64,000 bases of DNA from Acidimicrobiales bacterium (GTDB taxonomy: Bacteria > Actinomycetota > Acidimicrobiia > Acidimicrobiales > SZUA-35), in the NCBI GenBank assembly GCA_020629155.1, contig JAHDDW010000009.1, positions 62,001 to 126,000 on the forward strand. The letters run 5' to 3'. The position numbers and the translations under genes were made by a program. This document shows, piece after piece, positions 2,703-53,309 of this stretch; the stretch's first letter is position 1, and every line of letters begins with the position of its first letter. The notes below the pieces were generated by a model. That model saw nothing but the letters and a program-made list of their open reading frames with translations, made no database searches and was not told the origin of the DNA.

Positions 2703-3581
2703 TTATTCACGACACTGCATTAAAAGCTCAGATACTTCATTTTTTAAGAAGAGCAGAAACTTGGGTTTCTCCAACGTTCTCTCTTGGACCTCTGTTGGAA
2801 GGAATCGTTTTAGCTCGTTACGCAAAGATGCTCCTTCGATGATCGCAGGTAACCGAGTTATCATAGTTTCTAATTTCAATTGATAGTCAGATATGCGGTA
2901 GTCTTCGATTTTTTTCGCAACTAGCTCCTTAGAAACTTCCGCTCCTTGCTGTTTTAACCATCGCAGATCCCAAATATCTCTATGCCGAACATACTTTGAG
3001 GTAGTAACTAGCGAGATGAGTTTATCAGCCATAATTTCTTCTAACGTTTCAACCATAACGAGCGTGTCCTCATAGCCATCTGGTAGAAACGAATAGTTCG
3101 AAAGTAACGCTTTTGGTTCTTTCGTGTGAGCATCAACATTAGCTATCTCTATTTTTATTCGCTGTTTAGGAATGTCTGGCCTGCCTGACGAGGTGATAAT
3201 CGAAACAAGCCATTTGTCGATGTTGAGATCTCGATATGTTGGATCGTCGCGAAGTTCTTTAGGGTTCTTGACGGTAACTTCAAGCCCATAACGATCACCT
3301 ATATACTTCTCTATACATAATTTTAATGATTGCAAAGTCGCACTCGAAAATTGTTTCCCACCTGCAAAATCTAAATCTTCGCTAAATCGAGCCGAGCCAT
3401 AGCAAAGACGCAACGACGTGCCGCCTTGGAACGTGAGCTCATCTAAGATCCCTTCACGATCGAGAGAAAAAAGAATATCATAGTGTAACAATTCCTTGCT
3501 AACTACTGGCCTCATATGAGCACGGCCACCGACCTGCATCGCCTGCTCGACAAGCAATTGATAATCAGCAGAACTATTCAT
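2703..3581 (-). CDS. AbiEii-type nucleotidyltransferase toxin
   Basis: A 292-aa protein of the AbiEii / DUF1814 nucleotidyltransferase family. The diagnostic polymerase-beta motif FQGGTSLRLCYGSARFSEDL lies around residues 52-71. A later IMADKLISLV...VRHRDIWDLRWL block is the second conserved core. In characterised type IV abortive-infection systems AbiEii is a nucleotidyltransferase toxin countered by AbiEi. The ATG at 3581 overlaps the stop of the upstream gene by one base (TAATG), which fixes the start and indicates translational coupling. The longer frame reaching 3650 would lie inside the upstream gene. Phage defence is the likely role by family; the target cannot be read from the sequence. 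Confidence 0.88.
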   Translation of the reverse strand: MNSSADYQLLVEQAMQVGGRAHMRPVVSKELLHYDILFSLDREGILDELTFQGGTSLRLCYGSARFSEDLDFAGGKQFSSATLQSLKLCIEKYIGDRYGLEVTVKNPKELRDDPTYRDLNIDKWLVSIITSSGRPDIPKQRIKIEIANVDAHTKEPKALLSNYSFLPDGYEDTLVMVETLEEIMADKLISLVTTSKYVRHRDIWDLRWLKQQGAEVSKELVAKKIEDYRISDYQLKLETMITRLPAIIEGASLRNELKRFLPTEVQERTLEKPKFLLFLKNEVSELLMQCRE

Positions 3582-4114
3582 TACGCTCCTTCCAAAGCTT
3601 CTAGAGAGACAAGGTGAACATTGCGACCTACTCGCTTTAAGTCGCGCCAAGCTGTAGCGGGTTTTGCAAAGCGCAAAGGTCTACTTTGATCACAAACACC
3701 CTGCAGAATCTGGGCAGCATCTCGTTTTGTATGAGTAAACTCTATTGTCCCGAAACTCGTTTTATATTCCCCTGAACGACCTGTCGTCATGACCGTTAAA
3801 CGATCGATAGGGATTTGCGAAATGGCTCCGTATTCTGACAACGCTGACTCTAAACTGATGTAACTGTAGTGTCCTCGACGCATTGCTTTTGCGATATGTT
3901 CGATGATAAAGCCATCTTGACTGTGTGCAAAGGTATAGAGATAGACGCCTCGCGTCACTTGATCAAGCGTCCCTTCCCCCTTCAGCCGACGAAGCGTTGC
4001 TTGCAATGTTACACCGTCTTCGGAGAACAGTTTACGAAGATCAGCCAAGGTATAGACAAACCGACCTTGTCTGTCCCAATGTGCCAATGTTTGCATTGCC
4101 TGGTTTCGCTTCAC
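3581..4114 (-). CDS. AbiEi-type antitoxin / transcriptional regulator
   Basis: A 177-aa protein with an N-terminal winged helix (WDRQGRFVYTLADLRKLF, then LQATLRRLKGEGTLDQVTRG) and a C-terminal domain containing SLESALSEYGAISQIP. It matches AbiEi-like antitoxins, which neutralise AbiEii and repress their own operon through inverted repeats. I chose the GTG at 4114 because a promoter ends 7 nt upstream (see 4122-4150). ATGs at 4120 and 4141 are possible but would lie upstream of the predicted transcription start. The gene is coupled to the nucleotidyltransferase gene by a one-base overlap. Confidence 0.8.
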   Translation of the reverse strand: MKRNQAMQTLAHWDRQGRFVYTLADLRKLFSEDGVTLQATLRRLKGEGTLDQVTRGVYLYTFAHSQDGFIIEHIAKAMRRGHYSYISLESALSEYGAISQIPIDRLTVMTTGRSGEYKTSFGTIEFTHTKRDAAQILQGVCDQSRPLRFAKPATAWRDLKRVGRNVHLVSLEALEGA

Positions 4115-6496: not shown

Positions 6497-6573
6497 AACC
6501 GCTAAAAGGTGCGTGTTAACGCTCGGAGCGAAGCGGAAATACAGAGGGCATCTACAATTAGTAGAGAAGCCCT
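6497..6573 (-). repeat. 77-bp dispersed intergenic repeat, copy A, terminator-like
   Basis: By manual ungapped alignment, 60 of 77 positions match copy B at 31760-31836. On the minus strand it reads AATTGTAGATGCCC, then a stem CCGCT...AGCGG (6532-6536 with 6499-6503) followed by a T run. The loop contains smaller hairpins. It starts at the stop codon of the recombinase gene and would end its transcript. Both copies lie in the same place relative to unrelated minus-strand genes. Confidence 0.7.
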
Positions 6574-7600
6574 AGCGTTTGTTTACTTTGCGTAGCAGAG
6601 CGTTGACAGCAGTTGCTTGAGCGGTGTGATGCAACCCGTCAGCAGCCAGGCGTAGATACTGGCTTGTTGTCGCTAAGTTTTTGTGACCTAGCAGGGTTTG
6701 CAGCTCGGCTGGGTTGGTGCCATGGTCAAGTTGAGCAACCGCATAGGTATGGCGAAAAGCATGGGCTTTTTCGCCGTGGGGGAGCGGCACGCCTGCACCG
6801 TTGAGCCAGTTGACAACAAGCGCTTGCAGCGCTTGGTTGTTTAACTGTGCGCCGTTGTTGCGCACAAATACATAGTCTGTTTTTTTGTCGCCTCCAAGGT
6901 TTTTGTCTTTTCGTTCGGAAAGATAGGTGTCAATAGCGGTAAGCACTTCACCAGAAAGGGGGAGTACCCTATCTTTGTTGCCTTTGCCTGTGACACGGAT
7001 TCGCTGCGGCGATTGCCTGTCTATACCTGCGATAGACAGATCGGTAAGTTCGGATGACCGCAACCCGCAGCCTGCAAGTACACCGATCATCGCAACGTCT
7101 CGTTTCGCCCATGTGGCACGCAGGCGTTTATGCGGGTTTGCTGCTGCCTGCAAAATAGCTTCGAGCTGCTCTTCGGTGAACGCCACGGGAAGTTTTTCGC
7201 CAACTTGTGGCGTTTCAAAATCTTCTGTCGGATCAACCTTCAGATGGCCGTTTTTGCAAAGCCAAGCGCACAAGCCACGTAAAGCGCTGAGCATTCTGCC
7301 TCGGCTTGAAGCGGCAGCGTTTTGCTCGATAAGTTTGCCGAAAACTAACGCAAGGTTGGCATCAGTTAGTTCATGAGCGTCGATGCGTTGCAGCTGCTGG
7401 TTTTGTTTCGCCCATCGATCTTGCTTTTTGCCAGAAAGCTCTGGCGTTACTTTCTTTCCGATGTCGGCTAGCGTCCGCGCAAAGGTGGCCAGGTCATTAC
7501 GATAGGCGCGTTCAGTTTGTTCAGAAAAGCCGCGCCTGGCCCTGATTCGGTTATCAACAATCCAAGCATCAACAAGAGCGGTCAGGGGAGTGGAGGACAT
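6572..7600 (-). CDS. Tyrosine recombinase, XerC/XerD-like
   Basis: A 342-aa site-specific recombinase. It has an N-terminal SAM-like core-binding domain (residues ~1-140) and a C-terminal catalytic domain. Visible catalytic residues are Arg in GCGLRSSELTDL, Lys in TGKGNKDR, His-x-x-Arg in HAFRHTYAVAQL, His in LLGHKNLATT and the nucleophile Tyr in SQYL. Size and motifs fit XerC/XerD-like enzymes that resolve chromosome dimers or move cassettes or islands. I cannot tell which; the setting beside toxin modules and gene relics suggests mobile use. The ATG at 7600 was chosen because it follows the upstream gene's stop by 11 bp and starts the family-like part; the frame itself reaches 7669. Confidence 0.85.
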   Translation of the reverse strand: MSSTPLTALVDAWIVDNRIRARRGFSEQTERAYRNDLATFARTLADIGKKVTPELSGKKQDRWAKQNQQLQRIDAHELTDANLALVFGKLIEQNAAASSRGRMLSALRGLCAWLCKNGHLKVDPTEDFETPQVGEKLPVAFTEEQLEAILQAAANPHKRLRATWAKRDVAMIGVLAGCGLRSSELTDLSIAGIDRQSPQRIRVTGKGNKDRVLPLSGEVLTAIDTYLSERKDKNLGGDKKTDYVFVRNNGAQLNNQALQALVVNWLNGAGVPLPHGEKAHAFRHTYAVAQLDHGTNPAELQTLLGHKNLATTSQYLRLAADGLHHTAQATAVNALLRKVNKR

Positions 7601-7611
7601 AGCGAAAGGTA

Positions 7612-7809
7612 TTACTTCTTGCTGGTGGTATATCGATGAGGCTGCTTTTCCATTTTTTCGCCGCAACATTTACAATCAGGCTCGACAGAATGACGAGCTC
7701 TAACAGCTTTGGCCTCATCGCATGAGGGGCAGGCAAACCGTCGATAAAAACTTATAAGAAATGTTATCGAAACGACGCCAATAGCTGCAAAAATAATCGG
7801 CACGATCAT
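7612..7809 (-). CDS. Small membrane protein with zinc-ribbon-like cysteines
   Basis: A 65-aa protein with one N-terminal transmembrane helix (VPIIFAAIGVVSITFLISFY) and a short tail holding CPSC and CKCC pairs 28 residues apart, a plausible zinc knuckle. It is immediately upstream of the tyrosine recombinase gene (11 bp) and probably cotranscribed with it. I do not recognise the family; function unknown. Confidence 0.5.
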   Translation of the reverse strand: MIVPIIFAAIGVVSITFLISFYRRFACPSCDEAKAVRARHSVEPDCKCCGEKMEKQPHRYTTSKK

Positions 7810-10040: not shown

Positions 10041-11866
10041 GTGCGTCGTACACTTCTGCCCAGCGTTATAGGGATAACCATTTTCCTAATTCTTGCTGCG
10101 TTTAGCAATTCACCACTTTTTGCTAGCCTCGTATACATATTTTCTGGTTTTTTTGCAATGCACGCATGCTGGAAAAACCAATCTATTCCTGCAATACGCT
10201 GGTTGACACCGGCTATTTTACTAGCTGTTTTTGGTCAAGTCACACAACCACTAACTCCACAACCTGCACACAACCACTAACTCCACAACCTGCAGCTACC
10301 GCAGAAATGATAGGCACTGGTGTCGCTGTCTTAGTTATTGGTTCTCTGATATGGAAAAAAGTTCAGAAACTTCGCCCAGAAACATTTTTGGAAGCAATAA
10401 CGTTAACCTCCACAACTTCAATACTTGTCGCTATCGGGATTAGCTTTTCGAAAGAGTCACAGTCAGCGCTCTGGGGACTAGTCCCATTGATTGCGGCCTT
10501 TTCTCTTTCTGTCGGCAATATCGAGTTCAAGAAACTACGCGAAAGATTGCTACTCGTCGGTGTTGTGTCTTTCACTGGCATTTTGGTTACAACAGCTTCT
10601 GTAGAGGCCAACACAAACAATAGTAGAGTCATGGTGGCGCTTTCATTTCTCCTCATCGTCTCGCTTGCTTTAAGCAAAAATGATCCGCTTTTCCAAATTC
10701 TGGCCTTAGCAATTGTTGGCCCTCTAGCGAACGAAGTTTTTAACTTTCCACAAGATTCAACATTGCGACTTGTTTTTAGTGCCTCAAGCTTTCTACCTCT
10801 AGGCGTCGCTGGCAGTTTACAAATTCACATAAAACCCACACAGGCCAAACGAGCCGACAAGTTTGATATAAAACATCTCGCTGGTCTTTTCGCTCTCTTG
10901 GCGCTACAACCGCTAGCTTTCTTCCGCTCAGCAGCGACAGACCAACCTATAACGGCTTCTATAGCAACGTTTCTTGGGATTCTCGGCGGAGCAAGCACCG
11001 TCGGGCGCCTTTGGATTCTATTGAAAGAGCGAGACAGAGAACATGCATATGAAAAGCAGCTCAGCCGGCTACAAGAAGCTCTTTTTGAAGCAACAGGTGT
11101 CAATCAAGTCGAGCCGCTTGTTATGCGCTATGTAGAGGATCAGATCGCTGGCGTTCAAAGAATTACAATCTTTGAGCAGACACGAGCCACAAGCCATGCG
11201 ACCGCTCCCCTCTACCCTTTCCGTAAACGTTGGAACCTAGCATTATCAAAGAAAACCTATGTGCTTTCAGTCGAGGCAGACAAACCTCTGGCTTTCGCCG
11301 AGCTTCAAGCACTACGGAAGCTGGCAGATATTTTGCGTACTGTGATTGACCGGCTTGAGATCAGCCAAGAAGCTTTAGACACACTCGCTTATCAAGCACG
11401 TCATGATGCCTTGACAGGTCTTTACAATAGAAGTTATTTCTTTGAACAAGTTGAGAAGCAACGAAAGTTCCATCAACATTGTGTTGTCATGTTTATAGAT
11501 GTTGACCATTTCAAAAACGTTAACGACACCTATGGCCATGAAGCTGGAGATAAAGCGATAAAAAAAATCGCATCCACCATCAAGCGAAATGTACGAGCAA
11601 GCGATTTAGTGGCAAGAGCAGGCGGTGACGAATTTATTGTTTTTATAGGCGGCGTCGAAAAAGTTGCGTCGCTGCAGGACAGAATAGACAAACTGTTACA
11701 TACAACGCTTGAAATAGATAGCCAAACAACGATTGACTTGCATGTCAGCATCGGTGTTGCCAGGATGACTGCAGGTGACACGCTTGCAGAAATAATAAAG
11801 AAAGCCGATACAGCAATGTATAGCAGCAAAAGCAAGGGCGGTAATACTCACACGCTTTTAGTGTAA
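10041..11866 (+). pseudogene. Membrane diguanylate cyclase (GGDEF), broken by a 26-bp tandem duplication
   Basis: An intact version would be ~599 aa, with about eight N-terminal membrane helices, a linker and a C-terminal GGDEF domain. The domain has DALTGLYNRSYF, VDHFKNVNDTYGHEAGD, AGGDEF and SIGVARM. An inhibitory-site RxxD (RASD) sits five residues before GGDEF. The frame from the GTG at 10041 stops at 10280. The rest is read from a second frame (10166-11866). A 26-bp unit, 10241-10266, is repeated exactly at 10267-10292. Removing one copy joins the frames as GQVTQPLTPQPAATAEM with no other change. As given, the cyclase domain is separated from the first two or three helices. Slippage could restore it. 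Confidence 0.85.
10241..10292 (+). repeat. Exact 26-bp tandem duplication
   Basis: Two adjacent identical 26-bp units, 10241-10266 and 10267-10292, each starting CACACAACCACTAACTCCAC. Since 26 is not a multiple of three, the second copy shifts the reading frame of the diguanylate cyclase gene. Confidence 0.95.
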
Positions 11867-29473: not shown

Positions 29474-30012
29474 TGGTTTGCTCTGCGTTCATAGCCAACG
29501 GCTTTTAAAAGAGTTCGTTCTTTCGCTTCCATCTGTTCTCGATCGTGCGCTTCTTGATGATCATATCCAAGGACATGTAACACCCCGTGAATTAGCAGCA
29601 AAGAAATTTCTGACTCTGTTGGCATATCAAACTGGACTGCTTGCTCATTGGCACGCTCTACGTTGATAACTACATCGCCTAGCAAAATAGCTTCGAGATG
29701 GGCAACGGTTTCGATGTCACCTTTCGCTTGCCCAGAGGTTGCAGGTATATCGATTGGAAACGCTAAAACGTCGGTGGGTCCTTCTTTGCCCATATGTTCT
29801 TGATTCAGCCCAGCAATCTCTTCACTTGTGATGAAAGCTACGTCAAGTTGCCCAGCAGAAACATTTTCCGATGCCAAAACAGCTGCCGCTAGCTGCGCCC
29901 AATGAGAAAGCGCTTTGAGCGAAGAGTCGCCAGAGCGGTTACGCACACAAACACTCAAATTGCCGTTCTGAAGGGTGACTTCATCCATGATTTTGTTTGG
30001 TTGTGTCTTCAT
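29470..30012 (-). CDS. ybeY: Endoribonuclease YbeY
   Basis: A 180-aa metalloprotein. The zinc motif LLIHGVLHVLGYDHQE (His-x3-His-x5-His) is intact, preceded by the EIAGLNQEHMGKEGPTDVLA block. YbeY matures the 3' end of 16S rRNA and takes part in ribosome quality control. The ATG overlaps the phoH stop and the stop overlaps the next gene, so translation is probably coupled. Confidence 0.94.
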   Translation of the reverse strand: MKTQPNKIMDEVTLQNGNLSVCVRNRSGDSSLKALSHWAQLAAAVLASENVSAGQLDVAFITSEEIAGLNQEHMGKEGPTDVLAFPIDIPATSGQAKGDIETVAHLEAILLGDVVINVERANEQAVQFDMPTESEISLLLIHGVLHVLGYDHQEAHDREQMEAKERTLLKAVGYERRANQ

Positions 30013-30950
30013 CGGTTTGTGTCCTGATGAGATTCATAGGCATCAACAATATCTTGCACAATGCGGTGGCGAACCACGTCTTGCGACGTTAGTTTAGAAA
30101 AGCCAACACCTTCGACGGAAGACAAAATACTTTCCAGACCAGCTAAACCGCTTTTACCGTTTGCAATATCTAGTTGTGTTCTATCTCCAGTAATAACTGC
30201 TTTAGAACCGAACCCGATACGTGTAAGAAACATCATCATTTGTTGCGGCGACGTATTTTGTGCCTCATCAAGAATAATAAAACTGTTATTTAATGTGCGG
30301 CCACGCATAAACGCTAGCGGCGCAACTTCAACAACATTATCGTTAAACAGTTGTGTCATTTTTTCGGCACCGACAAGGTCGGAAAGAGCATCATACAGAG
30401 GCCGTAGGAAAGGGTCAACTTTCGACATTAGATCACCTGGAAGATAGCCTAACCTCTCGCCTGCTTCGACCGCAGGACGAGTAAGTAGGATGCGACCGAC
30501 TTCTTTATTTTGCAACGCACGCACAGCACAAGCAACCGCAAGCCAGCTTTTCCCAGTCCCAGCAGGGCCTATACCAAATGTCACCATGTTTTTGCTGATG
30601 CAATCTAAATACTTTTTCTGTCCAGCTGTTTTAGGAACAACAGGTTTGCCAGTTGCCGTCGTCAGAATTTGATCAGTGAATATTTTCGCTGGGCTGTCTG
30701 AAGAACGAACCATAGTGATAGAACGACGCACCTTCTCTTTATCCAGCAACTGGCCACTTTCTAACACAGCAATCATTTCTGCGACGACCTCAGCGGCAAG
30801 AGCAGATTCTGGCCCAGTTATGTTTATTTCATTACCGCGTACATTGATTTGAGCCTGCAACCCATCTTCTAGAATCCGCAAATATGTATCTTGTTCGCCT
30901 ACGAGTGACGCTACAAGGCGATTATCTTGAACTTGGATCTTGTTAGACAT
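30009..30950 (-). CDS. phoH: PhoH-like ATPase
   Basis: A 313-aa PhoH-family protein. Residues 1-100 are a KH-like N-terminal domain; the P-loop is FGIGPAGTGKSWLAVACAVR; Walker B is FIILDEAQNTSPQQ. The RPAVEAGERLGYLPGDL block is diagnostic. Members are ATPases, probably RNA helicase-like, and are coupled to YbeY across bacteria. A TATGCT -10 ends 9 nt before the ATG, so the leader would be very short. It heads the phoH-ybeY-corC-era operon. Confidence 0.92.
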   Translation of the reverse strand: MSNKIQVQDNRLVASLVGEQDTYLRILEDGLQAQINVRGNEINITGPESALAAEVVAEMIAVLESGQLLDKEKVRRSITMVRSSDSPAKIFTDQILTTATGKPVVPKTAGQKKYLDCISKNMVTFGIGPAGTGKSWLAVACAVRALQNKEVGRILLTRPAVEAGERLGYLPGDLMSKVDPFLRPLYDALSDLVGAEKMTQLFNDNVVEVAPLAFMRGRTLNNSFIILDEAQNTSPQQMMMFLTRIGFGSKAVITGDRTQLDIANGKSGLAGLESILSSVEGVGFSKLTSQDVVRHRIVQDIVDAYESHQDTNR

Positions 30951-31058: not shown

Positions 31059-31586
31059 TCATGCTCGTGTGAGCTTCAGGTCGGCAAGGCGGTCTAGAAC
31101 AAAGTCTATTTCAACGCCAAGAATGCAGGCAACAGCACGAAGGTCATCTTTACGTATAGTAAGAACTTTGCCGTTAAAATCTTGCCGCTGTACCTGAATC
31201 ATAGAAAGGTAGCGGCCTAACATTTCACCCTCAGGTCCTGGGATTTCTTCTAAATGAGCTAGGTCTAGAAGAATACCGCCAATGGCGTGCGTCGAATCTG
31301 TAAGGTCAAGAACATCTGATGAACGTCCACTCGAAACAGAAGAACGTGGTAGGAGCTGGTCAACTGGGACATTGTAATAGGTAGCTAGCCGATGCAGCCG
31401 TGGAACCGAGATAGCGCGTTCACCGCGTTCATATGCGCCGAGAACCGACGCTTTGAACTCGTGGTCAGACTGAGACTCAACATCTTGCAGCGACATCCGT
31501 TTCTGTCGACGGATTGCTCGCAAACGTTCACCAACCTTTTGGCTGTACTCAGAGTCAGTCCCTAGCTCTGACTCATTAACACTCAT
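31059..31586 (-). CDS. bldD: BldD-like XRE regulator with c-di-GMP signature
   Basis: A 175-aa protein. The N-terminal helix-turn-helix has VGERLRAIRRQKRMSLQDVE, YERGERAISVPRLHRLATYY. The C-terminal domain contains RQDFNGKVLTIRKDD, which fits RxD-X8-RxxD, the cyclic di-GMP binding signature of Streptomyces BldD (167 aa, similar layout). BldD dimers held by tetrameric c-di-GMP repress developmental genes. With GGDEF genes in the same window, a c-di-GMP-controlled regulon here is plausible by inference. The ATG at 31586 has a GGAAG about 11 nt upstream. A second ATG lies in no better context. Confidence 0.88.
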   Translation of the reverse strand: MSVNESELGTDSEYSQKVGERLRAIRRQKRMSLQDVESQSDHEFKASVLGAYERGERAISVPRLHRLATYYNVPVDQLLPRSSVSSGRSSDVLDLTDSTHAIGGILLDLAHLEEIPGPEGEMLGRYLSMIQVQRQDFNGKVLTIRKDDLRAVACILGVEIDFVLDRLADLKLTRA

Positions 31587-31759
31587 ATCTGCCTACTTCC
31601 AATTGATTCGTTGCGGCTCCCAGCAACCAAGGTATACCTCACGGAGAGCAAGGTCAACCACTGCCAGTGATATTTTTAGCGCAGCGTCCGAGGTGCCTTT
31701 GATAACGTATATAAACTACCTCGATAGGTATTACTTTTTATCGGATCATTTTGCTAAGA
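31587..31759. promoter_or_regulatory. Intergenic region upstream of the bldD-like gene
   Basis: About 170 bp without a gene. It holds GGTATACC and a small palindrome TACCT-CGAT-AGGTA followed by a T-rich run. These could be autoregulatory BldD sites, but no match to the Streptomyces BldD box was verified. Confidence 0.3.
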
Positions 31760-31836
31760 AACCGCTAAAAGCTGTGTGCTAACGCACCAAGCGCAGCGGG
31801 TACACACTGGGCATCTACAATTTTTAAAGATGTCCT
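31760..31836 (-). repeat. 77-bp dispersed intergenic repeat, copy B
   Basis: Matches copy A (6497-6573) at 60 of 77 positions without gaps. On the minus strand it covers the last codons and stop of rsmE, then CCGCT...AGCGG (31795-31799 with 31762-31766) and TTTCTT. An inner stem GTGC-GTTA-GCAC is perfect. Confidence 0.7.
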
Positions 31837-32492
31837 ATATGTTGTGCTATAGCAGCAGCTGTGATGGCGGCTGTTTCAGCTCGCAGAATATTGCCTGGCA
31901 ATGCCACAAGTTCACCAGCAGCCTTCTCATCATCGCTAAAACCTCCTTCTGGACCGATACAGATCGACCGATCTTCAGCTGTGATTTGACGACCTTCAGG
32001 ATCGGCAAGAACAACAGTCGACATAGCGAGAGAAGACAGCAACGTTACTGGCTCAATAGTGGGGATGTAAAGTGTTCGCGATTGCATTGCTGCTTCCCTG
32101 GCAACTAAACAAAATTTCTCATAATTCTTACTAGCTTTCCGTTCATCCCACCGCACAACTGAGCGCTGCGTTATAAGTGGAATGATTCTAGCAACTCCTA
32201 GTTCAGTAAGTTTTTGCACAATAAAATCTGGCCGCACGTTTTTCACTGGTGTGAAACACACAGTAATGGTAGCGCTGCGTTCGCTAAAGGTAGGTTCGTG
32301 TACCAGTTCAGGCTCTGGAGCAAAGCGAGCTTCAACCCAGTTGCCTACACCGTCGCTTAGCGTAATCGCTGCGCCTTCTTTGAGACGAAGCGATTTAGCG
32401 CCATGCCGATAGTCGACGTCACTGAGAACAGGTACCGCTAGATCATCTACAAAAAATAGTTGCCGTTTGCGCACCAAAGCAAGATGGCTCAT
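31824..32492 (-). CDS. rsmE: 16S rRNA m3U1498 methyltransferase
   Basis: A 222-aa SPOUT methyltransferase. An N-terminal PUA-like domain (SHLALVRKRQLFFVDD) is followed by the knotted SAM-binding domain with CIGPEGGFSDDE and PGNILRAETAAITAAAIA. RsmE methylates U1498 of 16S rRNA in the 30S subunit. The ATG overlaps the dnaJ stop (TAATG), giving the actinobacterial hrcA-dnaJ-rsmE order. Confidence 0.93.
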   Translation of the reverse strand: MSHLALVRKRQLFFVDDLAVPVLSDVDYRHGAKSLRLKEGAAITLSDGVGNWVEARFAPEPELVHEPTFSERSATITVCFTPVKNVRPDFIVQKLTELGVARIIPLITQRSVVRWDERKASKNYEKFCLVAREAAMQSRTLYIPTIEPVTLLSSLAMSTVVLADPEGRQITAEDRSICIGPEGGFSDDEKAAGELVALPGNILRAETAAITAAAIAQHIGHL

Positions 32493-43177: not shown

Positions 43178-44098
43178 GTGAAGATTAGTCTCATCGTTAA
43201 CCCATATGCATCATCAGTTACAAAACGAACTCGCGTTGTTATCCAAAAGGCGCTAGCCGCCGACCATGACATTTCAATCGTCGAAACAGCTCGGCGTGGC
43301 CATGGCACCAGACTTGCACATAATGCAGCTAAATCAGGCGCTGAAGTGGTCATTGCTTTAGGCGGAGATGGCACCATCAACGAAGTGGCAAATGGAGTTC
43401 TCGGCCATGACTGTGCAATAGCCCACCTGCCTGGAGGGTCAACCAACGTGTTCGCTCGCGCCATTGGATTTCCGAATAATACGATTGAAGCTACAAGTGT
43501 CTTACTTGATGCTTTAGACAAAGGGTCGATCCGAAAAGCCAGCGTTGGTATGGCAAATAACCGTGCCTTCCTGTTTCACGTAGGCGCAGGGTTTGACGCA
43601 GCTGTGGTCAGCAAGGTTGAAGAGAAAGGCCAACTGAAGCGCTATATCGGCCACCCACTTTTCATTGCTAGCACTATCGCAACGTGGGCGAAAGGGGTTG
43701 ACCGAAAAAATCCTTGGTTTTCGATCACAACAAGCGATGGTCACCATGTTGACGGGGCGCAGCTTGCAGTTGCCTTAAACTGTAACCCCTACACCTATCT
43801 CGGCAATAAACCCCTTGATTTAGCGCCAGAGACCACGCTAGATTCGCCGCTGTCGATTATCGCTTTAACACAGCTTTCGATTAACAAACTGCTGCCAGCT
43901 GTTGCAAAAGCTCTCCAATCATCGACTGGGATTCCAAACGGCAAATCAACAAAGCACTGGCAAGATATCACAACTGCTGTTATCAAAGGCCATCGCCCTT
44001 TTCCCTATCAACTTGATGGTGAGTTTTTAGAACCTGTGACAGAGCTACAACTTGAACATAAACCAGATGCTATTTCGTTAGTTGTCCCTGCTAACTAG
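43178..44098 (+). CDS. Diacylglycerol kinase family lipid kinase (DagK/YegS-like)
   Basis: A 306-aa lipid kinase. The N-terminal domain has ISLIVNPYASS, VVIALGGDGTINEVANGVLG and LPGGSTNVFARAIGFPNN, the nucleotide-binding signature. A C-terminal beta-sandwich includes GAGFDAAVV. Members phosphorylate diacylglycerol or sphingosine-like lipids, recycling DAG to phosphatidic acid. The frame runs upstream into the divergent peptidase gene; the GTG at 43178 starts the conserved domain and is preceded by a -10. It overlaps the convergent kinase gene by 21 bp. Confidence 0.9.
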   Translation: MKISLIVNPYASSVTKRTRVVIQKALAADHDISIVETARRGHGTRLAHNAAKSGAEVVIALGGDGTINEVANGVLGHDCAIAHLPGGSTNVFARAIGFPNNTIEATSVLLDALDKGSIRKASVGMANNRAFLFHVGAGFDAAVVSKVEEKGQLKRYIGHPLFIASTIATWAKGVDRKNPWFSITTSDGHHVDGAQLAVALNCNPYTYLGNKPLDLAPETTLDSPLSIIALTQLSINKLLPAVAKALQSSTGIPNGKSTKHWQDITTAVIKGHRPFPYQLDGEFLEPVTELQLEHKPDAISLVVPAN

Positions 44099-45544
44099 CG
44101 CAGGTTGCAGCTGCATTGATATCACTTTAATTGTTGCTGTAGTTCCAAATCCGTTAACAGAAGGTTCCAACGTTAAGTCGCCTTTAAAGTCATCTTTGGT
44201 CAACTTCTTGGCCAAAGTCAAACCTAACCCGAAATCTTTTTTGCTGAATGTTTCAGGCAGCCCTTCCCCATCATCTATAACCTTTAGCTGCAACGTCGCG
44301 GGTTTATCTTCAATCTCTATTTTGACTGTCCCACCTTGCGTGCCGCTGTAGCCATGCTCTACAGCGTTTTGCAAAAGCTCAGTAACAACAATGGCTATTG
44401 AGTTGACTAGGCGCTCTGGCAACAATGGGTTATCACCAGAAACTTCAATGCGGATAGGACAATCTGGGCCGACAAGCGCCGACTTTGTCATAGCAACTAA
44501 CGGTTGGATAACATCTTGCAGATGTACATCATCAACACCTTTTTTAGACAATAACTCATGCACAACTGCTATAGAGGCAATACGGCGGACTGAATCGTCG
44601 ATAGCTGCTTTCGCGTCACTGCTTGAAAGCCGACGGCTTTGAAGGCGTAACAATGCCGAAACTGTTTGCAGATTATTTTTGACTCGATGATGGATCTCTC
44701 TTACGGTTGTGTCTAATGAAATAGCTAGACGGTCGTGCTGGCGGATATCTGATATATCACGGATAAGTGCAAGCCCTTCAAACGATTTTTTGTCTTCGAT
44801 AAGCGGCAACAAAAGCAACAGTAACGACTCATCGCCTTTCTGAAACTCGTCGATGCAAGGTTTGCTTGACTCGATAGATGACATAATTTTTTGTCTATCA
44901 AAACCAATATCGTGCAAATGCTTACCTATCAGCGAACCATTAAAACCGATCCGCCGCATTGTCGAAACGCAGTTAGGTGTCACATTCAAAATTTTGCCGA
45001 AACGATTCACATGCAGCGCACCATCGCCTACACGAGGCGCATTTTTTGTGCTTACAGAATGAGCATACGGGAAATCGCTGGCAGCAATCATGTTGATGAA
45101 ACGTTCAGACATTTCCATATAAAGGCCAACGACAAGCGACACGGCATTACGTGGGTTGATTCTCTGAGCAACAAGCACAGCAATGACAGTCCCGTTGTGA
45201 CGTACTGGCACTGCGAAACTTCTTACCGTTCGACCGTACTCAGGGAAATCAAAAATCAATTCTTCTGTCTTGTTGCCGTCGAACGCTTCACCGATGATGG
45301 GCCAGGTAACTTTCATCCCGACTTGGTCTTCGACATAGAGTGTTTTAACCATCAACGATCGAATATGATCTACACAAAGAAACGTCTGCTCCTCAGATCC
45401 ACTATCGCCAGGATCCACAAACAGCATAAGATCACCTAGAAAAAGATCTGCTACTGTCCCCCATGACAGCGTTAACTTCTGCAAATACGCTATTTGTTCA
45501 GGTGATAACCCTGTGTTTTTGTTTAGAAGATCATGGATTAACAT
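44078..45544 (-). CDS. PdtaS-like sensor histidine kinase
   Basis: A 488-aa soluble histidine kinase: GAF-like N-terminal domain (residues ~1-150), PAS-like domain (~165-270), a HisKA_2 dimerisation box with the phospho-acceptor His (VREIHHRVKNNLQTVSALLR) and a HATPase_c domain (VVTELLQNAVEHGYSG, DDGEGLPETF, FGLGLTLAKKLT). It matches actinobacterial PdtaS, which works with the RNA-binding antiterminator PdtaR. No PdtaR gene is in the window. GGAGAG lies just before the ATG. Confidence 0.88.
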   Translation of the reverse strand: MLIHDLLNKNTGLSPEQIAYLQKLTLSWGTVADLFLGDLMLFVDPGDSGSEEQTFLCVDHIRSLMVKTLYVEDQVGMKVTWPIIGEAFDGNKTEELIFDFPEYGRTVRSFAVPVRHNGTVIAVLVAQRINPRNAVSLVVGLYMEMSERFINMIAASDFPYAHSVSTKNAPRVGDGALHVNRFGKILNVTPNCVSTMRRIGFNGSLIGKHLHDIGFDRQKIMSSIESSKPCIDEFQKGDESLLLLLLPLIEDKKSFEGLALIRDISDIRQHDRLAISLDTTVREIHHRVKNNLQTVSALLRLQSRRLSSSDAKAAIDDSVRRIASIAVVHELLSKKGVDDVHLQDVIQPLVAMTKSALVGPDCPIRIEVSGDNPLLPERLVNSIAIVVTELLQNAVEHGYSGTQGGTVKIEIEDKPATLQLKVIDDGEGLPETFSKKDFGLGLTLAKKLTKDDFKGDLTLEPSVNGFGTTATIKVISMQLQPALVSRDN

Positions 45545-50925: not shown

Positions 50926-51602
50926 TGCCAGCTGCTTTGCTCAACAAAGAGTATTACAGCCTTCTAGGCGTCGCGCCTGGAGCTTCAGATGATGAGCTAC
51001 GCGACGCTTACCGTAAGGTAGCGAGAGAAAATCACCCTGATGTTTCGACAGCCGATCCCTCTATTATGCGCGACATAAATGAGGCGTGGCGGGTGCTGTC
51101 AGACCCGCAGCTGAAAATTTCTTACGACGCTTCATTGGCTGAACCTGTTCCAGTGCCACAACCTATGCCAGCAACAGGTCGAACACGGCGTCAAGCGTGG
51201 GCAGCCGGCGTAGCCGAACAGATCCAGCGTTTGGCGCATCTTTCAGGAAGAAGCGCTACACAAACACTGTTAATGAAGAACCCGTTAGCGCAACGCGAAG
51301 CATATAACCATGTCACCGATACGGTTGCCAAAGCTTTGGCAACCGATGTTGAATCTCGGGTGAGGGCAGCACGCGTCGCAGGTGCCGCTCCTTTAGATCT
51401 GGGCGTTGCTAGCACACTTGTCGGAATACGCACTTTAGCCGATGAGATACGCCGCAATGCGCATTCGCAATTATCACTCGACGTTATGATCAAAGCACAG
51501 CTGCTTGACAGAATGTGGGATGTTTTAGCTCACGAACTGCCGGCTACGCTAACAACATCATTAGGAGGCAACCCTCATATCGCCCGCCAACTGGGTGTGT
51601 GA
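50925..51602 (+). CDS. J-domain protein
   Basis: A 225-aa protein. Residues ~8-70 form a J domain (YYSLLGVAPGASDDELRDAY, then HPD in ARENHPDVSTAD), which stimulates DnaK ATPase. The remaining ~150 residues are helical, with no zinc fingers or substrate domain of DnaJ. The client is unknown. It starts with GTG overlapping the fumC stop, so it is coupled to fumC. Its 3' end overlaps the convergent HD gene by 42 bp. Confidence 0.82.
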   Translation: MPAALLNKEYYSLLGVAPGASDDELRDAYRKVARENHPDVSTADPSIMRDINEAWRVLSDPQLKISYDASLAEPVPVPQPMPATGRTRRQAWAAGVAEQIQRLAHLSGRSATQTLLMKNPLAQREAYNHVTDTVAKALATDVESRVRAARVAGAAPLDLGVASTLVGIRTLADEIRRNAHSQLSLDVMIKAQLLDRMWDVLAHELPATLTTSLGGNPHIARQLGV

Positions 51603-52322
51603 TCTTCCTGCCTGGGAAATCGGCTGGTTGTTGGGTTTCCAAGCCATACAAGATTTAAGACTGTCATGAAGATCTTCAAGATCTGGATTTATACAATCTA
51701 GCTTCAGAAAAGAGTAGGCAACTTTAGGACTGAATTGGGTTCCAGCGTATTTTCTTAACGCATTAATTGCGTCATCATAGGGTAAAGCCACTTTGTACGG
51801 TCGTTTTGAAGTTATGACGTCTATAACATCTCCAGCCGCAATAATCTGACCAGCAAGGGCAATTTTTTCGCCTGTTAGTTCTTGGGGATAGCCTGTGCCA
51901 TCCCACCGTTCATGATGGCATAGTATGCCACTTGAGTGTTCTCCCAACCACTCGACCAGTACGTCACTTAGCAGATACATGCCATTTTGAGGGTGCCGTT
52001 TAATTTCTTCATATTCCTCCAAAGTGGGTTTACCAGGACTATCTAGAATTTCGAGTGGAGTGCATAGCTTTCCAATATCATGCAGCAGAGCTGCACATAC
52101 CAGCTTGACTCTCTCTTCGTCTGACACCCTACTCTGAGCAGCAAAATAGTTGACGTAGGCCGCAACCCGATGCGAATGATAATACGAATCTATATGATAC
52201 TCTCGGAGCAAGCCTAGAAGAGCCCGCATTTCACGTTGGGCTCGTAGAGGAAGCGATTTAGAATCGTTAAGGTTTGATGTTGGTGCATCAACCGAAAATA
52301 ATCTCGCCTCGTACGAATTCAC
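51561..52322 (-). CDS. HD-domain phosphohydrolase (HD-GYP-related)
   Basis: A 253-aa protein. The HD motif is in LVCAALLHDIGKLCTP; CHHERWDGTGYPQELTGEKI carries the extended H-HE-R-DG-GYP signature, so it belongs to the HD-GYP group of c-di-GMP phosphodiesterase-like enzymes. IAAGDVIDVITSKRPY completes the core. The start GTG at 52322 has TAGAGT 6 nt upstream. It neighbours a PAS-degenerate GGDEF gene on the same strand, so it may take part in second-messenger signalling. Confidence 0.85.
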   Translation of the reverse strand: MNSYEARLFSVDAPTSNLNDSKSLPLRAQREMRALLGLLREYHIDSYYHSHRVAAYVNYFAAQSRVSDEERVKLVCAALLHDIGKLCTPLEILDSPGKPTLEEYEEIKRHPQNGMYLLSDVLVEWLGEHSSGILCHHERWDGTGYPQELTGEKIALAGQIIAAGDVIDVITSKRPYKVALPYDDAINALRKYAGTQFSPKVAYSFLKLDCINPDLEDLHDSLKSCMAWKPNNQPISQAGRSHTQLAGDMRVAS

Positions 52323-52388
52323 TCATTTACTCTAAAGCCTACGACATGGCGCGTCTACCTCTGCCAGACAATTCTGCAACAACCAAGC

Positions 52389-53237
52389 TTAGAGCTGCAA
52401 GATATCGGTTCTGCTGCCGCCGCTTGTCGAGGCTCGATTGCCTGATGCTTCTAACAGCGCAAGCAGCTTTTCAATCGACGGTTTTGTATTCATCACCGAT
52501 GTTAACGCCACACTTGTCGTGAACGAAACAAGCTTTTTATCGAAATAGACAGGAAAAGCTATTTCGCCTCGTAAGCGCTCGGCAATCTCAGTTATCTGAT
52601 CTGTGTCAGCGTCTGAGGTAAGCAACGCCAAAAAGCCAGACTTTTCAAACCGGCCAACCAAATCGGGAGACCGCAGCTTTCCTTTAATACGCTCGCCTGA
52701 CTCTTTCACTACCCTCTCAACTTGTTTATCGCCATGCGAAGTAACAAGCCCAGCCAGCTCATCTATCCACAAACAAAGCAACGCCATAGGTTTCGGCTGG
52801 TTCGCGTGCGATCGCCTATAAAGTTCAGACAGCACATGATAATGATCAGGCAAACCTGTAAGCACGTCATGTGTTAAATCGCCTGCGGCTTTAGCAGAAA
52901 GCTCAAATTCGTTTTCCATGCTGCGAACGCCAACTGCCATGTGGTTAGCATCGATCTGTTTAACTGTTAGCTCTAATGGCAATAACGCACGAGAAATACG
53001 CACCGTGACACTTGCTGGCTTTGCACTAGCACCACGCAAAAGCGCTTCCCAACTATCGGAGAACTCAGGAACAAGCAATTCGCCTAATGGAACACCCAGA
53101 AGTTTATCTTCTGGTATTCCCATAACGTCTATTGCCATCTCATTCATCGACGTTACAACACCACCAGAGTCGATAAGAAGACATCCAGTAGGACACGCTT
53201 GCAAAAATTGTAGATACTGACTTGTTTCAGCTGACAT
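52389..53237 (-). CDS. PAS-GGDEF protein with degenerate active site
   Basis: A 282-aa protein. A PAS domain (residues ~5-110; CLLIDSGGVVTSMNEMAIDV) is followed by a GGDEF-like domain with DVLTGLPDHYHVLSE. The catalytic loop is GRFEKSGFLALL, where GGDEF is replaced by EKSGF, so cyclase activity is unlikely. Such domains can act as effectors or receptors. The ATG at 53237 follows GAGG by 7 nt. The HD-GYP-related gene lies 66 bp downstream. Confidence 0.78.
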   Translation of the reverse strand: MSAETSQYLQFLQACPTGCLLIDSGGVVTSMNEMAIDVMGIPEDKLLGVPLGELLVPEFSDSWEALLRGASAKPASVTVRISRALLPLELTVKQIDANHMAVGVRSMENEFELSAKAAGDLTHDVLTGLPDHYHVLSELYRRSHANQPKPMALLCLWIDELAGLVTSHGDKQVERVVKESGERIKGKLRSPDLVGRFEKSGFLALLTSDADTDQITEIAERLRGEIAFPVYFDKKLVSFTTSVALTSVMNTKPSIEKLLALLEASGNRASTSGGSRTDILQL

Positions 53238-53309
53238 ATTCACACCTCGTACCTTCTATTTTTACCGTGAAAGTACTGATGATCCTAGAAGCTACCTCAC
53301 CTAGCTTTC

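Follow-up and report, generated by a model that had tools for sequence, protein, structure and literature searches.

What does a BldD homologue do in a bacterium of the class Acidimicrobiia? In Streptomyces, BldD is known for holding back sporulation in response to c-di-GMP, whereas the Acidimicrobiia lineage is not known for sporulation. We studied a bldD gene found in the window (the whole stretch of DNA analysed, 64,000 nt) together with its relatives. The reading that we favour, with a probability of roughly 0.75, is that this BldD is a c-di-GMP-activated repressor of itself and of one diguanylate cyclase (DGC). The gene, its domains and its neighbours were placed as follows:

31059..31586, minus strand: bldD orthologue, 175 aa, ATG start (profile, structure-database and alignment evidence)
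31347..31547, minus strand: N-terminal Cro/C1-type HTH DNA-binding domain, residues 14-80 (HTH_3, PDB 2ewt, fold)
31080..31274, minus strand: predicted C-terminal c-di-GMP-binding domain, residues 105-169 (PF21179, PDB sequence and fold matches)
31143..31187, minus strand: RxD-X8-RxxD signature RQDFNGKVLTIRKDD, residues 134-148, intact
31824..32492, minus strand: rsmE, upstream neighbour of bldD (Methyltrans_RNA)
30009..30950, minus strand: putative phoH (a sequence-based name), downstream neighbour of bldD; its orthologue in genome G017 is the gene after an alcohol dehydrogenase (see below)

An earlier note on this DNA had recognized here a BldD homologue with an intact signature, and full-domain matches in Pfam, PDB and fold searches confirmed it. 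The Pfam profile PF21179 (BldD-like_C) matched with 63.4 bits against a cut-off of 27 (E 1.8e-17), and HTH_3 was matched in the same protein. PDB entry 2ewt (BldD DNA-binding domain) was a sequence match to the HTH (E 7.8e-18), and 2mc4, 4oaz and 5khd (BldD C-terminal domain) were sequence matches to the C-terminal domain. An AlphaFold2 model built from 16 class sequences reached a mean pLDDT of 76.7 and a pTM of 0.41; all 16 of its 16 PDB matches by Foldseek at E <= 0.001 were BldD structures, and the fold matches to the C-terminal domain included 4oay, 4oaz and 5khd. The two-domain layout and the RxD-X8-RxxD motif are those of Streptomyces BldD (2ewt, 4oaz, 5khd), to which the HTH was ~54% and the C-terminal domain ~38% identical in the fold alignment. 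The HTH was also invariant at many positions in 16/16 aligned sequences (the protein itself and 15 relatives). The NCBIfam BldD equivalog model NF050110 gave 143.8 bits, under its 250-bit cut-off, which we treated as a threshold for transferring a name and not as a defining biological feature; the 175-aa protein is therefore regarded as a divergent BldD orthologue. What we claim for it is BldD orthology, not functional equivalence.

Among the best 80 of 306 relatives, which form our set of named loci, the best ten comprised nine from Acidimicrobiales or Acidimicrobiaceae and one from an uncultured actinobacterium, which points to Acidimicrobiia as the class of this genome. The gene order here is rsmE-bldD-phoH; within the class this place appears conserved, with rsmE and phoH also flanking the corresponding site in G017. 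Convincing bldD orthologues have been described in Acidimicrobium, of the same class as the present protein, and the available part of that paper stresses the local synteny of bldD orthologues and infers that bldD was present in very early actinobacteria (Chater & Chandra 2013, PMC4255298). The protein itself is therefore not new. In its available part, the Acidimicrobium account does not address c-di-GMP binding, operators or targets in the class; the available part of PMC10746217 contains no BldD, and the searched literature, which misses most subscription papers, yielded no description of BldD operators or of the signature in Acidimicrobiia. What is new here, by computation, is the wide conservation of the signature, a predicted BldD-DGC loop and the patterns of loss.

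The same genome held a 488-aa BldD-like paralogue (L002:1198-2664, G000:C39) with an HTH-like N-terminus, a hydrophobic segment, a C-terminal domain that resembles BldD's below the threshold and has no signature and, by eye, a HELGH-like motif near the C-terminus. Lacking the signature, it was set aside. BldD-like matches in longer open frames were seen in several family genomes.

The signature is laid out as R134, D136, eight residues, R145 and D148, and these four residues were invariant in the 16/16 aligned sequences. According to the available part of Tschowri et al. (2014, PMC4151990), the signature occurs throughout sporulating actinomycetes, and c-di-GMP is contacted in Streptomyces BldD by R114, D116, R125, D128, K84, R130, I110, N118 and S123. 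The equivalents in an ungapped alignment were R134, D136, R145, D148, G104, R150, I130, N138 and T143, i.e., 7/9 identical, one conservative change (Ser123 = Thr) and one contact lost (Lys84 = Gly). By analogy with the Streptomyces protein, c-di-GMP made by the cell's DGCs would bind the C-terminal domain through RQD-X8-RKDD and couple two BldD chains, whose paired HTH domains would then bind boxes of the CAC-N5-GTG type.

The ligand has candidate sources in the window, where the earlier note had reported GGDEF proteins and an HD-GYP-related protein. These were located as:

10166..11866, plus strand: GGDEF protein with an intact active site, preceded by an RxxD; its N-terminal half looks hydrophobic on inspection
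51561..52322, minus strand: HD-GYP protein with HDIGK and HHERWDGTGYP motifs (c-di-GMP turnover context)
52389..53243, minus strand: PAS-GGDEF protein whose active site is degenerate

The HD-GYP gene adjoins the degenerate PAS-GGDEF gene (51561-53243, minus strand), and the two neighbours are possibly a regulatory pair. The earlier note had named a genome with no intact diguanylate cyclase elsewhere as one case against its idea; intact GGDEF genes are present. The genome (3.17 Mb in 59 contigs) had 14 GGDEF and 7 EAL matches, and six of eight GGDEF loci scanned showed GGDEF, five of them with an upstream RxxD.

The signature was found in 80/80 named loci, a set that is biased because it holds the best 80 of 306 relatives and because one search peptide overlapped the motif. 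It was also found in 78/79 genomes of a draw from the class, the better-scoring ones, from many families; four of the 79 are also in the named set, and the further genomes with the signature amount to 74/75. The lone exception among the 79 was G319, with a motif ending in RVDE. The letters between the four specifying residues varied among relatives. In the whole class draw (n = 296), BldD was detected in 197 genomes at E <= 1e-25, covering 138/163 genera, and GGDEF in 232. Both were present in 193 genomes, BldD only in 4, GGDEF only in 39 and neither in 60, a co-occurrence with p 4.6e-31 (Fisher test, which ignores phylogeny); the 39 genomes with GGDEF alone weigh against the favoured reading.

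Among the 197 BldD-positive genomes, 99 had their motif read (the G312 protein, probably a paralogue, was excluded). It was missing from 7/9 genomes in which GGDEF was absent or weak versus 3/90 with strong GGDEF (p 2.7e-7, Fisher test ignoring phylogeny), where weak means no match better than E 1e-20 and the nine are all such BldD-positive genomes; the seven losses come from two clades and should not be counted as seven separate events. The four genomes with BldD and no GGDEF belong to one genus (g25), and in 4/4 the HTH was kept and the signature absent. Their bldD follows hrcA-dnaJ in all three loci inspected, and no box was found upstream of these truncated genes. In family f38, a signature-like motif was present in three genomes with strong GGDEF and absent in three with weak matches alone. 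Counter-examples existed in the other direction: G108 and G130 kept the motif with weak GGDEF matches alone, and have congeners in the draw with strong GGDEF.

These patterns bear on an alternative that we consider unlikely, in which the protein is an orthologue that binds DNA and regulates itself, c-di-GMP is not its main signal, and the motif is a relic or belongs to a weak binder. Binding could be weak because the Lys84 contact is missing: this phosphate-contacting position is reported as invariably K or R among the homologues treated by Tschowri et al. (PMC4151990, available part), whereas it is Gly here, K in just 12/80 relatives and R in none. Moreover, G047 and G050 pair a broken motif with many GGDEF proteins (9 and 10 matches, respectively), and G184 and G188 retain the promoter box described below without the signature. 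Against it, the four signature residues have been kept in 80/80 and 78/79 genomes (with the four shared) while the intervening letters vary, and the motif is mostly gone where GGDEF is absent or weak. The BldD relatives in the two genomes with broken signatures amid plentiful GGDEF proteins (L217 in G050, L218 in G047) may sense something else.

The earlier note had proposed looking for a BldD box upstream of the gene itself, and a CAC-N5-GTG site was found there, abutting the putative -35. The promoter elements, putative throughout, were:

31658..31670, minus strand: BldD-box-like operator TCACTGGCAGTGG, CAC-N5-GTG, abutting the -35
31652..31657, minus strand: -35 of the bldD promoter, TTGACC (position and family conservation)
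31639..31651, minus strand: second, weaker box-like site TTGCTCTCCGTGA, within the -35/-10 spacer
31629..31634, minus strand: -10, TACCTT (TANNNT; position and family conservation)

The BldD-box consensus of 2014 is TNAC-N5-GTNA (PMC4151990, available part), and the best sites in this promoter had 5/6 of its specified letters. Within 200 nt upstream of bldD, CAC-N5-GTG occurred in 47/81 loci (our own and the 80 named), against a mean of 6.7 and a maximum of 14 in 200 dinucleotide shuffles; its background was 162/3139 windows elsewhere in the same loci and 6/75 stretches downstream of bldD. The core was missing from 34/81 of the 200-nt upstream regions, 13/31 in the family. The strict published box was found in 14/81 (shuffle mean 2.2, maximum 6). 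In the class-draw genomes CAC-N5-GTG preceded bldD in 35/79 (mean 6.0, maximum 12), a count in which the wrong upstream region was taken for L261. When the spacer was varied across the 81 loci, 5 nt was the main peak and 1 nt a smaller one. The latter, CACNGTG in 23/81 versus a shuffle maximum of 13, was rejected as a separate site; many of these (not all accounted for) are BldD boxes with GGTGC-type middles.

The family set consisted of our own locus and the 30 closest named loci (L049-L078). The promoter pattern TTGANN-N17-TANNNT was present upstream of bldD in 31/31 (shuffle maximum 1), with GTG one base ahead of it in 27/31 (shuffle maximum 0). The full CAC-N5-GTG within 200 nt was present in 18/31, and the weaker site in the -35/-10 spacer in 23/31, our own included. 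With one box abutting the -35 and a weaker one in the spacer, BldD is therefore predicted to repress itself. In S. coelicolor bldD is itself among the genes repressed by BldD (PMC4255298, available part).

A second set of boxes was found outside the window, upstream of a DGC gene (L009:514-1968; G000:C47:40498 on) that encodes 484 aa from a TTG start, with GGDEF, a sub-threshold GAF and an N-terminal part that is hydrophobic by eye. The boxes lie at -34 and -12 from the TTG. An orthologue was present in 38/39 family genomes and was the sole match in 37 of these; GG[DE]EF was read in 30/30 loci. In the 200 nt before the aligned part, CAC-N5-GTG occurred in 28/30, against a mean of 2.8 and a maximum of 7 in 300 shuffles of the 30 regions, in which none of the other spacers from 0 to 13 was enriched. 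Among the eight remaining family genomes the box was present in 6/6 with bldD and in neither G017 nor G018. The totals were thus 34/36 genomes with bldD versus 0/2 without detected bldD (Fisher p 0.0085, uncorrected and ignoring phylogeny).

A first box of the form CAC-N5-GTA, 21 nt ahead of the CAC-N5-GTG, was found in 30/36 genomes with bldD. It overlaps a -10-like TANNNT and often reads YCACGTANGGTA (25/36); in the second box the half-sites were constant and the middle letters variable. From one box over the -10-like element and another 21 nt downstream, we therefore expect high c-di-GMP to shut this DGC down. Shut-off would let c-di-GMP curb an enzyme that makes it, a homeostatic arrangement, and the boxes on bldD and on the DGC together predict a c-di-GMP–BldD–DGC feedback loop.

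The two genomes without detected bldD differ in what they can tell. The gene was found in 37/39 family genomes, edge fragments included. In G017 (94% complete) a zinc alcohol dehydrogenase gene (L131:350-1396) sits between rsmE and phoH in the place of bldD, and 12 GGDEF matches remain. In G018 (55% complete) phoH was not found, bldD was not detected and the locus is unassembled; its absence of bldD is therefore unproven, and G017 is the one assembled loss.

Could a different regulator, in charge of both bldD and the DGC, be the one that uses the CAC-N5-GTG sites, with BldD acting elsewhere? Their assignment to BldD is a prediction from sequence, and the exact TNAC-N5-GTNA was present in just 14 of the 81 bldD upstream regions, which gives this idea some room; nevertheless, spacing and half-sites fit the published BldD box, the HTH domain is largely invariant in the 16 sequences, and G017, the genome that has lost bldD, has no DGC box either, so that we judge it quite unlikely. 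As in Streptomyces, the half-sites are 5 nt apart and boxes mark both the promoter of the regulator itself and a DGC gene; unlike in Streptomyces, the half-sites are mostly CAC/GTG instead of strict TNAC/GTNA.

Even with BldD on these sites, the sign of control is not given by computation, and a positive loop in which BldD activates the DGC gene might be imagined. We hold this, too, to be quite unlikely: in 30/36 genomes the first box lies over the -10-like element and the second just downstream, positions typical of operators, and Streptomyces BldD represses the DGC genes cdgA, cdgB, cdgC and cdgE, as stated in the available part of the source. Repression here would be carried over from that system, as would dimerisation and DNA binding. 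Finally, although a four-residue pattern alone could occur by chance, full-domain homology, fold and synteny refute such an origin in an HTH regulator unrelated to BldD.

The predicted repression of the DGC by BldD, which is the reading retained, seems narrow in its distribution. At E <= 1e-20 the DGC matched in 5/296 class genomes, all of its own family, with at most seven candidates scored per genome, and no target was found beyond that family. The loop with the DGC therefore looks like a trait of the family and not of the class, an apparent difference from Streptomyces BldD. The comparison of signature, GGDEF genes, boxes and co-loss gives good support to the earlier note's suggestion of a c-di-GMP/BldD circuit in this lineage; the presence of bldD had been described already in 2013.

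On a wider scale it is possible, and we put it forward tentatively as something we would rather doubt than assume, that the older, pre-sporulation role of BldD was c-di-GMP homeostasis through repression of itself and a DGC, that lineages in which c-di-GMP synthesis is lost shed the signature and keep the DNA-binding domain, and that the target operators are lost after loss of BldD. If a bare loop repressing itself and a DGC does operate in this sister class, BldD was probably recruited to sporulation later on, and its core logic would be open to study in a simple setting. The natural variants without signature would be ready-made tests of whether the HTH can work without c-di-GMP. RsiG-WhiG is likewise a developmental c-di-GMP effector of Streptomyces that also occurs in unicellular Actinobacteria; according to the available part of PMC8325347 it is tied to type IV pili in Rubrobacter, and RsiG is present in 3/4 Acidimicrobiales. 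Unlike BldD, it is an anti-sigma system, and it has a binding motif of its own (PMC8325347).

We claim no BldD targets beyond bldD and the DGC. A genome-wide regulon search with YCACN5GTGRTTG gave 167 sites with up to one mismatch versus 137 for the reversed control, not clearly enriched, and was abandoned. The genome's c-di-GMP genes were scanned for boxes at 15 loci, including the box-bearing DGC; the upstream sequence visible was 87 nt in L010, 270 nt in L004 and 291 nt in L005, and none in L007 and L207. Among the 12 other genes with some upstream sequence visible, three had a single site and nine had none. There were four exact matches to YCACN5GTGRTTG in the genome, and that of bldD was alone in a clear promoter. 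The matches in L136 (inside a long ORF) and L138 (inside an ORF) were rejected as targets. The remaining one, L135:1501-1516 (G000:C1), is an exact extended-consensus box at the end of one ORF, with the ORF of an ABC-transporter ATPase following after ~70 nt, and may mark a possible further BldD target.

Two other features of the window were recorded. Mycobacterial PdtaS has been linked to c-di-GMP, and a histidine kinase whose GAF domain is of the PdtaS type (44078-45544, minus strand) may therefore be a second c-di-GMP-related sensor. An AbiEii-type nucleotidyltransferase toxin gene (2703-3650, minus strand) has an integrase gene close by (6572-7669), and this stretch is possibly a mobile or defence region.
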